Shown here piece after piece: positions 26,195 to 63,950 of a stretch of 64,000 nucleotides of DNA (the stretch's first letter is position 1; the number at the start of each line of letters is the position of its first letter). The translations under genes were made by a program, and so were the position numbers. The notes under the pieces are model-generated. The model ran no database searches. It was not told the DNA's origin and was given only the letters and a program-made list of their open reading frames with translations. Origin of the DNA: Magnetococcales bacterium (GTDB lineage: Bacteria > Pseudomonadota > Magnetococcia > Magnetococcales > JADGCH01); assembly GCA_015229115.1 (NCBI GenBank), contig JADGCH010000003.1:40189-104188 (forward strand), written 5' to 3'.

Positions 26195-26485
26195 ATGGAC
26201 CTGAAACAGCTTCACATACGCGATTTCCGCAATATCGTTCATGCTGAGCTGACGTTTGATCCCACCCTCAATCTGATCACCGGCAGTAACGGCCAGGGTA
26301 AGAGCAATCTGCTCGAAGCCATTGGCCTGCTGAGCACCGGACGCTCGTTCCGCCATGCGACAGCTGGTCATATGCGACGTCACAATCAACCCTGGTTTTG
26401 TCTCAATGGCCAGGATCCCAGGGAGTTTTCACCATCGCATTCGTGCGAAGTATGTGGTGTTACAGACTGGAAGGAGCGCGACTGA
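26195..26485 (+). pseudogene. recF: Truncated recF 5' copy (about 73 RecF-like codons, then unrelated sequence)
   Basis: MDLKQLHIRDFRNIVHAELTFDPTLNLITGSNGQGKSNLLEAIGLLSTGRSFRH matches the full recF at 35430, then diverges at 26415. Confidence 0.92.
26222..26414 (+). repeat. 193-bp direct repeat, left copy (recF 5' region)
   Basis: Aligned by eye with 35457-35649; single mismatch seen (26360 A versus 35595 G); offset 9235. Confidence 0.95.
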
Positions 26486-26666: not shown

Positions 26667-27695
26667 ATGCAACTGGCACCTCAAGACCATGATGGCTTCT
26701 TCAAGGTATGGATTGATGACAACGGCACCCTTCGTATCCTGTTGCAACACTGGTTGCCTGCACCTTTGTACCAGGCAGTTGACCTAACTGTCGATCCGGA
26801 AGTGCTCAAGGTCAACTACGCCGGTCTTTACCACGGGCCATCCTGTGCCGATTTCCTCATCCGGCTCAAGAGCACCGATGGCATGCCGTTGCATGTTTAC
26901 GTGTTGTTTGAACACAAAAGCCATTTTGACCGTAACACACCGATGCAGTTTCTCATCTACCAGGGTGAGGAGCTGCGCGCCATCTTTACCCAGCAGGGTG
27001 AAAAGGGGCCTTTGCCCGCCATCTTTTGCATGGTTGTCTACCATGGTCCAGAACAATGGTCCATGCCATCATTCTTCCACACTATGTATGGCAACATATC
27101 GGCTGAGTTGCGTTCCTATGTGCTTGACTTTCCCTATCAACTTCTGAACCTGCAACAGATCCCTGATCAGGAGATCCTGCAACTTCCGGTACGCACCAGC
27201 AGTGGTCTCATGGCACTCAAATATGCTTTTTCTCCAGAAAGCCAGCAACGGGAGATAATCCTGTTGACCCTTGACCAGATTGCAGCAGACAGAGTGATCA
27301 GCTCTAGCTACCTGTTGCAGCTGGTACGTTACTGGATGGAAAAATACACCGGCTTCGATCCACAGCTGGCTGATCGTGTCGCCACCAAACTACACCATTC
27401 TGCGGAGGTTGAAACCATGTTGTCCAATTTTGCCCAAACTTATCTGGATAAGGGACGCCAGGAAGGCGAACAAAAAGGTCGCCAGGAAGGCGAACAAAAA
27501 GGTCGCCAGGAAGGCGAACAAAAAGGTCGCCAGGAAGGCCGCATCTCTCTACTGCTACATCTGACACAGCGCCGCTTTGGAACTCTGCCTACATGGACCT
27601 TGGAAAAAGTGATTGGTGCTGATTCTGCTCAAATTGACCTCTGGAGCGACCGCATCCTCGATGCCCGCTCACTGGAAGAATTGTTTAACCATTGA
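26667..27695 (+). CDS. Rpn-family (YhgA-like/PF04754) recombination-promoting PD-(D/E)XK nuclease with DUF4351-like C-terminus
   Basis: DHDGFFKVW N-terminus, CADFLIRL...VYVLFEHKSHFD (D...ExK), GRQEGEQK repeats, LLLHLTQRRFGTLP...LEELF tail. Confidence 0.85.
   Translation: MQLAPQDHDGFFKVWIDDNGTLRILLQHWLPAPLYQAVDLTVDPEVLKVNYAGLYHGPSCADFLIRLKSTDGMPLHVYVLFEHKSHFDRNTPMQFLIYQGEELRAIFTQQGEKGPLPAIFCMVVYHGPEQWSMPSFFHTMYGNISAELRSYVLDFPYQLLNLQQIPDQEILQLPVRTSSGLMALKYAFSPESQQREIILLTLDQIAADRVISSSYLLQLVRYWMEKYTGFDPQLADRVATKLHHSAEVETMLSNFAQTYLDKGRQEGEQKGRQEGEQKGRQEGEQKGRQEGRISLLLHLTQRRFGTLPTWTLEKVIGADSAQIDLWSDRILDARSLEELFNH
27417..27695 (+). CDS. Predicted in-frame intragenic RpnS-type C-terminal protein (92 aa)
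   Basis: In-frame ATG (codon 251 of the Rpn gene) preceded by GGAGG (27404-27408) with an 8-nt spacer. Confidence 0.5.
   Translation: MLSNFAQTYLDKGRQEGEQKGRQEGEQKGRQEGEQKGRQEGRISLLLHLTQRRFGTLPTWTLEKVIGADSAQIDLWSDRILDARSLEELFNH
27453..27539 (+). repeat. 24-bp in-frame tandem repeat (3 full units plus partial) encoding GRQEGEQK
   Basis: ggtcgccaggaaggcgaacaaaaa repeated at 27453, 27477, 27501, partial from 27525. Confidence 0.97.
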
Positions 27696-60712: not shown

Positions 60713-61391
60713 TCTGCTGCCGCAGTGGCCATTGTTTATCGAGCAGGCCGCTGTCATACTGGAACGTCCCTTGTTTCAGACAGAGATTGATCGCTATCAG
60801 CAGTTCTTCAGCTCGTTGTTGCAATGGAACCAGATTCATAACCTGATCGGTCCGGCGGCTGAAAGAGAGTTACTCATCCGTCACGGTCTCGATTCGTTGT
60901 CCTTTTATCCCTATCTTGTATCAGGGCGACCGATGGCTGATTTGGGGTCCGGAGCCGGTTTCCCTGGTTTGATACTGGGTATGATTGAACAGCCTGCCTT
61001 TCAGATCGATCTACTGGAGCGGATTGGCAAGAAAAGAGACTTTTTGGCCTACCAGATCGACCAGCTGCAGTTGACAGCACGCCTGAGAAGTCTGGCAGCT
61101 GGTGACAGTCAGGAGGGCTATGCCGTGGTCTGTTCCCGGGCGGTTGGCGATTTGGCCCATGTCGCCAGACAGGCTTGGCCCCTGTTGCAGCCGGGTGGCG
61201 TTTATCTGGCGCTCAAGGGAGCCCGTCATCAGCAGGAATTGCAGCAGTGGCAGCGTCTCAAGCAGATCAGGGATCGGTTTGAAGCACCTCAGCCACTAGC
61301 AGGAGTCGGAGAGAGCATCGTGATCCGGTTGCGCAGGCGGACCCCTCACCCCCCAGCCCCCTCTCCCACAGGTGGAGAGGGGGAGGCATGA
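60699..61391 (+). CDS. rsmG: 16S rRNA m7G527 methyltransferase RsmG (GidB), with C-terminal extension encoded by a palindromic repeat
   Basis: ADLGSGAGFPGLILGM; follows mnmG; tail RTPHPPAPSPTGGEGEA falls in repeat 61341-61419. Confidence 0.93.
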   Translation: MKWDDLLPQWPLFIEQAAVILERPLFQTEIDRYQQFFSSLLQWNQIHNLIGPAAERELLIRHGLDSLSFYPYLVSGRPMADLGSGAGFPGLILGMIEQPAFQIDLLERIGKKRDFLAYQIDQLQLTARLRSLAAGDSQEGYAVVCSRAVGDLAHVARQAWPLLQPGGVYLALKGARHQQELQQWQRLKQIRDRFEAPQPLAGVGESIVIRLRRRTPHPPAPSPTGGEGEA

Positions 61392-61419
61392 GTGACTTGT
61401 CTTACCCAGGGTGAGGGGT
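61341..61419. repeat. REP-like GC-rich palindrome, upstream flank of DUF559 gene
   Basis: acccctcacc...gccccctctcccacaggtggagagggggaggc...gggtgaggggt nested inverted repeats. Confidence 0.85.
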
Positions 61420-61822
61420 GCAGATGGAAGGCCAACAGAGAGCTTTTATGACCACAACGGTTGAGGTTGCCCGATCATTAAGGCGTGAGCTAACGCCAAC
61501 GGAGGAAGTTTTATGGAGGGCACTGCGAGCTAGCAAGCGCGGTTACAAAGTAAGACGTCAACAACCGATGGGACCGTTTATCGTGGATTTCTTTGTACCT
61601 CAGGCACGACTTGTGATCGAAATTGACGGATCTGTGCATGAATTACAGCAGCAACAGGAATACGATCGGGAAAGGCAGGAATTTCTCGAACAGTCTGGAG
61701 TAAGTTTTTTAAGGTTTAAGGATCAACATATTGAAAATTATCTAGAATATGTTGTTGAAAAAATAGATCAGGTTGTGCGTCAGAAGGCTTCATGCCCCTC
61801 TCCCCTTGTGGGAGAGGGGTAG
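61418..61822 (+). CDS. DUF559-family (Vsr/restriction endonuclease-like) protein
   Basis: LRRELTPTEEVLWRALRASKRGYKVRRQQPMGPFIVDFFVPQARLVIEIDGSVHE...YDRERQEFLEQSGVSFLRF. Confidence 0.88.
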   Translation: MQMEGQQRAFMTTTVEVARSLRRELTPTEEVLWRALRASKRGYKVRRQQPMGPFIVDFFVPQARLVIEIDGSVHELQQQQEYDRERQEFLEQSGVSFLRFKDQHIENYLEYVVEKIDQVVRQKASCPSPLVGEG

Positions 61823-61830
61823 GGGTGAGG
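61795..61830. repeat. REP-like GC-rich palindrome, downstream flank of DUF559 gene
   Basis: cccctctccccttgtgggagaggggtaggggtgagg; encodes the SCPSPLVGEG* end of the DUF559 ORF. Confidence 0.85.
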
Positions 61831-61844
61831 GGGGGACTTAAAGG

Positions 61845-62603
61845 GTGAATCATCGTATCATCGCCATCGTCAATCAGAAGGGTGGCGTTGGCAAAAGCAC
61901 CAGCGCCGTTAATCTGGCAGCAGCCCTGGCAGCGGCGGAACGCCGGGTCCTGCTGGTCGATCTCGATCCGCAGAGCAACAGCTCGGTCGCCTTTGGCATC
62001 GATGATGACGGGCGCTTGCCCACCATCTACGATCTGCTGATTGACGGGGTAACCTTGGCCGATGTTATAAGACCAATTTTAACACCGTGGCTACATATGA
62101 TACCAGCAGCTTCTGATCTGAGCGGTGCAGAGGTGGAGCTGGTGGCCATCGATAAGCGTGAAACGCTCCTGAAAACAAAGCTATCCGAGATTAGCCGCAA
62201 CTACGATCATATCCTGCTCGACTGCCCCCCGTCGCTGGGTCTGTTGACGGTCAATGCCCTGGTGGCAGCCGATGCTGTTCTGGTGCCGCTGCAATGTGAG
62301 TTCTATGCCATGCAGGGGCTGAGTCAATTGCTCAGGACCATCGATATTGTGCGCGAGCAGCTCAATCCGCAACTGGCCCTGCTGTCCATCGTACTGACCC
62401 TGTTTGAATCCGGCGTGGCCCTTTATGAGCAGGTGGGCAACGAGGTGCGCAGTCATTTCGGTCCGCTGGTGGCTCGCACCGTCATCCCTCGTGATGTACG
62501 CGCAGCCGAAGCGCCCAGTTTTGGCCGTCCTGCGGTCTGGTATGACGTCCGTTCGCGGGTGGCACGGGCCTATCTGTCACTGGCACAGGAACTGTTTTTG
62601 TGA
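61845..62603 (+). CDS. parA: Chromosome partitioning ATPase ParA/Soj
   Basis: IIAIVNQKGGVGKSTSAVNLAAALA; LLDCPPSLGLLTVNAL. Confidence 0.96.
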   Translation: MNHRIIAIVNQKGGVGKSTSAVNLAAALAAAERRVLLVDLDPQSNSSVAFGIDDDGRLPTIYDLLIDGVTLADVIRPILTPWLHMIPAASDLSGAEVELVAIDKRETLLKTKLSEISRNYDHILLDCPPSLGLLTVNALVAADAVLVPLQCEFYAMQGLSQLLRTIDIVREQLNPQLALLSIVLTLFESGVALYEQVGNEVRSHFGPLVARTVIPRDVRAAEAPSFGRPAVWYDVRSRVARAYLSLAQELFL

Positions 62604-62617
62604 CTGGGTATTTTATC

Positions 62618-62636
62618 CCTGGGGCATCGCCCCAGG
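62618..62636. terminator. Perfect hairpin cctggggc-atc-gccccagg between parA and the RpnS-like gene
   Basis: 8-bp stem; no clear U-tract, so terminator status is uncertain. Confidence 0.35.
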
Positions 62637-62660
62637 AGACTGTTAGAGGAGAATAAAAAA

Positions 62661-62942
62661 ATGCCTTATGTCAGCAGTGTCGAGCGTATCGGTATAGAAA
62701 AGGGGATTTTTATCGGAGAACAGAGGGGAGAGCAAAGAGGAGAGCAAAGAGGAGAGCAAAGAGGTCTCCACAGAGGGCAGGCCAGTATGTTGCTGCGTCT
62801 GATACAACGTCGCTTTGGCCCCATACCGGACCAGATCCATGACCTGGTTATGCAGGCCAGCTCTGACCAGATGGAGCAATGGGGCGATCGTCTGCTGGAA
62901 GCATCCTCCCTTGAGGCTTTATTCGACAACGCAATGGGGTAG
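62661..62942 (+). CDS. Stand-alone RpnS-like protein (C-terminal DUF4351-like part of an Rpn protein, no nuclease domain)
   Basis: MPYVSSVERIGIEKG(GEQR repeats)...MLLRLIQRRFGPIP...DRLLEASSLEALFD aligns with the C-terminus of the Rpn gene at 27417-27695; strong SD AGAGGAG at 62646. Confidence 0.85.
   Translation: MPYVSSVERIGIEKGIFIGEQRGEQRGEQRGEQRGLHRGQASMLLRLIQRRFGPIPDQIHDLVMQASSDQMEQWGDRLLEASSLEALFDNAMG
62715..62762 (+). repeat. 12-bp in-frame tandem repeat (4 units) encoding GEQR
   Basis: ggagaacagagg then ggagagcaaaga x3. Confidence 0.96.
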
Positions 62943-62951
62943 AGAACACCT

Positions 62952-63950
62952 ATGAGCAATCGTGTACTAGGGCAGGGTCTGGGTGCCCTGCTGGGTGCCC
63001 GGTCGGTGGATGCCGTCGAGCGGCAGCGCATTCGCCAGGTTGGGCTGGATGCCATTCAACCCAACCCGTGGCAGCCACGTCAACAGGGACTGGATGAGAC
63101 TGACCTGGTCGAGCTGGCCGATTCCATCCGGGTTCAGGGCGTGCTGCAACCCATTCTGGTACGCCCCCTGCCCAGCGATGGGACAACAGTCCTCCATGGC
63201 GAAGAAAGCTACCAACTGATTGCCGGTGAGCGGCGCTGGCGTGCGGCCCGTCTGGCTGGTCTGACGCGCATTCCGGTTATCGTCCAGGAGATGGATGATC
63301 GCACCGTGCTGGAAGTGGCCCTGCTGGAGAATCTGCAGCGGCAGGATCTCAACCCGGTCGATACCGCGCGCGGTTACGCTCGGCTGGTGCAGGAATTTGG
63401 CTACAGCCATGGTCAGATTGCCCAGCGGGTTGGCAAAAGCCGCATGTCGGTCACCAACCTGCTGCGTCTGTTGCACCTGCCCGAGGCGGTGTTGCGGCAG
63501 GTCACCACCGGGCTGTTGTCAGCCGGTCATGCCCGAGCGTTGCTGAGTGTGGCAGAAAATCCACAGAGCGTCACGGAACTGGCGCAGCAGGTGGCCGATT
63601 CGGCCCTGACCGTGCGTGAAACCGAGCGCTTGGTGCAGCAACTGTTGCAGGGTGATGCGTCCCCAACTCAGCAAAACCGGCTAGACCGGCAAAATTTGCT
63701 GTTGCAACCAGAGCACAGTGACCCCAACCACAGTGACTCCAGCCCGCCCGCCCGCCCACCATCCAAGGGGCAGCGGCGTCGTGACGCCTCCATCGTCGAA
63801 CTGGAAAAACGGCTGGCATCCGAGTTGCAAACCAGCGTTACTGTAACCCATACACAGGGACGCGGACGCATCATCCTGGAATATCGTTCTCTCGAAGCAC
63901 TGGAACGGCTGGTTAATCACATGCTGAAAGAGTCACAAAATGACCAATAA
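62952..63950 (+). CDS. parB: Chromosome partitioning protein ParB
   Basis: LGQGLGALLGAR, IQPNPWQPR, GERRWRAARLAGL, ALLENLQRQDLNPVDTARGY, HTH VGKSRMSVTNLLRLL. Confidence 0.96.
   Translation: MSNRVLGQGLGALLGARSVDAVERQRIRQVGLDAIQPNPWQPRQQGLDETDLVELADSIRVQGVLQPILVRPLPSDGTTVLHGEESYQLIAGERRWRAARLAGLTRIPVIVQEMDDRTVLEVALLENLQRQDLNPVDTARGYARLVQEFGYSHGQIAQRVGKSRMSVTNLLRLLHLPEAVLRQVTTGLLSAGHARALLSVAENPQSVTELAQQVADSALTVRETERLVQQLLQGDASPTQQNRLDRQNLLLQPEHSDPNHSDSSPPARPPSKGQRRRDASIVELEKRLASELQTSVTVTHTQGRGRIILEYRSLEALERLVNHMLKESQNDQ

Follow-up and report, generated by a model that had tools for sequence, protein, structure and literature searches.

The window analysed here, a 64,000-nucleotide stretch of a Magnetococcales draft genome (3.15 Mb in 184 contigs, 96.5% complete), carries a 93-codon open reading frame (ORF) between parA and parB and, elsewhere, a full-length gene for Rpn, a defence protein that cuts DNA. 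The features concerned are the following:

26667–27695, + strand: full-length Rpn of another linker subclass (nuclease plus DUF4351); a candidate internal start for a 92-aa product lies at 27417
61845–62603, + strand: parA
62618–62636, + strand: dispersed palindrome CCTGGGGCATCGCCCCAGG, a solitary copy at the junction (about 18 copies in the genome)
62643–62660, + strand: inherited Rpn codons LEENKK, now Shine-Dalgarno sequence (SD) and spacer; rpn DNA homology begins at 62643
62661–62942, + strand: stand-alone rpnS-like gene encoding 93 aa with a DUF4351 domain and a tetrad linker of 31 residues
62952–63950, + strand: parB

The ORF is laid out as the first-pass annotation of this DNA described it, with an SD, AGAGGAG, at 62645–62651 (core GAGGAG; duplex energy −9.1 kcal/mol) ahead of the ATG at 62661, a gap of 57 bp after the parA stop (62603) and one of 9 bp before the parB ATG (62952). 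The GEQR four-residue repeats noted in it are also present, within a linker reading IEKG IFIG EQRG x4 LHRG QAS (31 residues), and the tetrads begin at residue 12, within the 8–20 residues past the start that characterize an RpnS. Homology to Rpn C-terminal domains, whose absence in an HMM search the annotation had named as a refutation, is borne out by a Pfam match to DUF4351 (E 4.3e-10, 40 bits against a cut-off of 25). A scan of 61300–63100 for promoters and terminators detected none, phage records gave no match to the ORF, and PADLOC returned only a weak match.

The ORF's closest relatives indicate where it came from. Among the 61 genomes searched, the best matches are Rpn proteins of the same order (G028, G037, G006, and G044), whose C-termini align with residues 1–90 at about 51–59% identity, the lowest E value against Rpns of the subclass bearing MPYVSSVERIG being 2e-30. 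These full-length proteins align not only with the ORF but also with the 5–6 codons upstream of it, SD included, such that the in-frame reading ahead of the ATG (...RRLLEENKK-MPYVSS) resembles the same junction in relatives (IVAFEENKK-MPYISS in L023, LSNFEENKK-MPYITS in L024, and IVAFEENQK-MPYVSS in L088). The SD of the ORF is thus the "EE" codon pair of its parent rpn gene. In a base-by-base comparison with 29 full-length genes, anchored at their Met codon, high identity (0.7–0.9) spans positions −18 to +5, with values of 0.71–0.80 at −18 to −1 that reach 0.87 at the start; upstream of −18 identity to the ORF falls to 0.06–0.34, while the homologues among themselves still share 0.44–0.65. An rpn gene on another contig of the same genome (C23) is 80% identical over 62643–62693 and has the same first base of homology. 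Because homology to all of these genes starts at 62643, we conclude from the alignments that an rpn gene was severed near 62643, immediately before its internal SD, that the ORF is what remains of its 3′ end, and that this parent belonged to the "EEN-MPYVSSVERIG" subclass, a subclass other than that of the Rpn gene at 26.7 kb. That the ORF has RpnS ancestry we regard as close to certain. The homology ends abruptly, 6 bp past the palindrome; many other copies of CCTGGGGCATCGCCCCAGG occur in pairs that bound a REP/MITE-like element of roughly 120 bp, which contains additional palindromes, and the repeat may have played a part in the deletion. Beside a copy of this element on contig C99 (G000), an rpn of the 26.7-kb type (L203/L180) loses homology inside its DUF4351 domain.

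The sequence upstream of the conserved Met appears to have been maintained as a start site in the full-length genes. An internal SD is kept in all 29 full-length members of the subclass, each at −6.2 kcal/mol or better (mean −9.2), as compared to −4.8 kcal/mol after synonymous reshuffling and −3.2 kcal/mol at 177 other internal Met codons. The Glu pair at −5/−4 is written GAG in 57 of 58 codons versus 350 of 815 (43%) elsewhere in the same genes (Fisher P 5e-19, a value that overstates independence because the 29 genes are related by descent), and the codon bias is plain on inspection. This evidence suggests that the full-length genes of the subclass make RpnS from a conserved internal start; such a product has been demonstrated by experiment for rpn genes of E. 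coli and C. difficile (PMC10327210), and the GAG-GAG bias would extend conservation of an intragenic RpnS start to this order, beyond those genes. Judged by sequence, the ORF begins at the same Met, behind the same SD, as the internal product of rpn genes would, the SD being unchanged in strength (−9.1 versus a mean of −9.2 kcal/mol). It shares start codon, SD, and domain with the putative intragenic RpnS of the 29 relatives, and its linker length with eight of them; unlike the ORF, the 29 genes keep the nuclease part upstream in frame. The locus therefore offers a base-level picture of a gene within a gene turned independent, in which the SD of the small ORF can still be read as two parental glutamate codons.

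The encoded protein, known from one genome, shows no sign of sequence decay, although a young relic would look alike. Its leave-one-out HMM score (119) falls within the range of full-length homologues (88–143), it deviates at only two of 22 strongly conserved columns, both changes being conservative, and the 93-codon frame is intact. One of the cases that the first-pass annotation had named as its own refutation, in which only a decayed Rpn 3′ end would be left, is therefore half realized: the ORF is such a 3′ end, but its frame is undecayed. In the AlphaFold model, residues 6–52 form one helix, which short C-terminal helices follow; pLDDT is about 90 over residues 41–70 and 56–62 over the first 30. 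As modelled, the protein resembles the published description of RpnA-S, which has a long first helix and a three-helix bundle and dimerizes via the first helix. Searches of the PDB by sequence, profile, and fold returned no relevant match and no solved RpnS. Linker lengths in the subclass rise by four (7, 15, 19, 23, 27, 31, 35, and 39), and none of the comparable Rpns of the ORF's own genome has its length of 31 (they have 7, 15, 19, 23, or 35, in a draft whose contig ends truncate some rpn genes). No cognate RpnL with a matching tetrad number, such as a working toxin-antitoxin pair would have in the cell, is visible in the draft assembly.

Stand-alone rpnS genes are not new. In E. coli, ypaA is a second copy of RpnE-S, and RpnC-S also has a copy (Zhong et al., PMC10327210); stand-alone RpnS genes are annotated as DUF4351 in some species, and antitoxin activity of RpnS has been published (PMC10327210). 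Like the E. coli genes, the ORF descends from a full-length rpn and encodes the C-terminal domain of Rpn as a separate gene, but the E. coli copies lie directly downstream of their parents, whereas the ORF has no parent beside it and sits between parA and parB. Other small separate DUF4351 genes follow a full-length rpn in G039 (L138) and G016 (L137) and a contig-truncated one in G010 (L028), and on a Synechococcus elongatus plasmid (NZ_CP143860, L205) a stand-alone DUF4351 gene of 49 aa comes after the one for a full-length DUF4351 protein. These resemble the ORF in kind, but L138, L137, and the plasmid copy, which adjoins DISARM drmA, lie directly behind a full-length rpn. The present case is distinguished by the loss of the parent, by an origin at the internal SD that can be placed to the base, and by the location.

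We lean, with modest confidence, towards the ORF being an expressed stand-alone RpnS that could act as antitoxin to a matching Rpn. On this reading, an rpn of the "EEN-MPYVSSVERIG" subclass lost its 5′ nuclease part, and its C-terminal DUF4351 part was left between parA and parB; because the break lay immediately ahead of the conserved internal SD and start, the small protein could still be made. Expression would now most likely depend on transcription of the gidB-DUF559-parA-X-parB cluster, whose genes are co-oriented. The protein, predicted to form a long tetrad helix with a small helical bundle, would dimerize through the long helix, pairing either with another copy of itself or with the C-terminal part of an Rpn of equal linker length, and such pairing would block the nuclease of the matching Rpn, as E. 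coli RpnS does. The sequence establishes the ancestry, the breakpoint, the inherited SD, and the intact domain; expression, dimerization, antitoxin activity, and any current benefit to the cell we infer. With no partner in the assembly, the present action, if any, would be to protect against a matching Rpn that has been lost or that newly arrives, and the ORF may in this way guard against incoming Rpn nucleases, as the annotation also proposed.

Alternatively, the ORF may be a recent nonfunctional remnant, an rpn between parA and parB whose front was deleted, perhaps at the palindrome, and whose tail has not yet had time to decay. We give this reading considerable weight, if less than an even chance. 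The abrupt end of homology beside a dispersed repeat speaks for a relic, as does the absence of a partner Rpn from the assembly and the restriction of the ORF to one genome. DUF4351 is plentiful in the order (up to 69 matches per genome; 24, with 14 Transposase_31 matches, in the host genome), and some of the matches are short fragments lacking a nuclease domain that lie scattered in related genomes, several of which look like plain rpn debris. Two lie near parB, outside the parA-parB pair: one about 25 bp behind it in G036 (L055 2431–2757), the other about 740 bp behind it in G044 (L053 214–747). However, a remnant does not readily account for a 93-codon frame that is intact and retains its strongly conserved positions save for two conservative changes, nor for a cut placed exactly in front of the SD, which is no random place.

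A broader variant of the functional reading, which we consider unlikely, holds that loss of the nuclease part at the internal SD has recurred among rpn genes and that the freed RpnS is kept as immunity against the Rpn toxins of neighbours or mobile elements; were this so, the ORF would be an "anti-addiction" antitoxin tied to expression of the parAB cluster. Breakpoints in other orphan fragments are suggestive only in this regard: the non-tandem fragments L053 and L029 begin at most about 6 codons from the internal SD, and L109 and L150 retain 20–30 more codons. The second of these, L029 (1113–1788, in G031), is an rpn with an internal deletion, in which the front of the nuclease domain is fused to EENQEMPYITS, the breakpoint lying again at the internal SD.

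The first-pass annotation had proposed a stand-alone antitoxin that neutralizes the chromosomal Rpn, on the strength of a C-terminal alignment with the gene at 26.7 kb. The RpnS-like part of that proposal stands, since domain, start, and SD are shared with the internal start of full-length Rpn genes; the target finds no support. The alignment itself is real and well above chance (BLASTP, 72 C-terminal aa aligned at 50% identity, E 4e-21), but the closest pairing lies elsewhere, in the MPYVSSVERIG subclass. The 26.7-kb protein has a Transposase_31 nuclease domain followed by DUF4351 (26.6 bits, Pfam), and its gene contains, as had been predicted, a candidate internal start 92 codons before its end, preceded by GGAGG, whose product would be close to the ORF in length. 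That similarity in length and sequence speaks for the ORF acting in trans as its antitoxin. However, the 26.7-kb Rpn belongs to another linker subclass, with no counterpart of the N-terminal MPYVSSVERIG segment and with RQEG/EQKG rather than EQRG tetrads, and its gene has a candidate internal RpnS start of its own. Published specificity also depends on tetrad number: E. coli RpnA-S and RpnB-S inhibit only their own full-length proteins, RpnA-S leaving RpnB unblocked, and in RpnC one added tetrad abolishes inhibition (PMC10327210). Because no comparable Rpn in the assembly has a 31-residue linker, neutralization of this resident Rpn is very improbable. Near the 26.7-kb gene, recF (26195–26485, in a dnaA-dnaN-recF cluster) is cut to 96 codons, matching positions 1–71 of 339 in TIGR00611, and with the full-length rpn beginning about 180 bp later, rpn occupies the place of the missing part of recF.

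The parA-parB junction was readable in 35 other members of the order (27 + 8, leaving aside two loci at which no parA lay within range), and the ORF is missing from every one of these junctions, so the survey that the annotation had suggested for the same insertion in relatives found none. Spacing between the genes in relatives is mostly 0–30 bp and, among gaps measured to the base, never exceeds 202 bp; in G001 (same genus, 69% complete) there was no parB match, and its parA relatives are distant only. The ORF is accordingly, by this comparison, a lineage-specific insertion outside the segregation system, and as an insertion in one genome it gives no sign of a par-related role. That it is nevertheless a component or regulator of ParAB segregation, as the tight same-strand packing of parA, ORF, and parB might suggest, is a very improbable reading, given its absence from all 35 junctions and homology that is wholly to Rpn. 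On the other side of parA, a DUF559 (endonuclease-like) gene at 61418–61822 separates parA from gidB, two genes that stand close together in relatives, and an inverted repeat, CCCCTCTCCC-CTTGT-GGGAGAGGGG, at 61795–61819 overlaps the end of the DUF559 gene.
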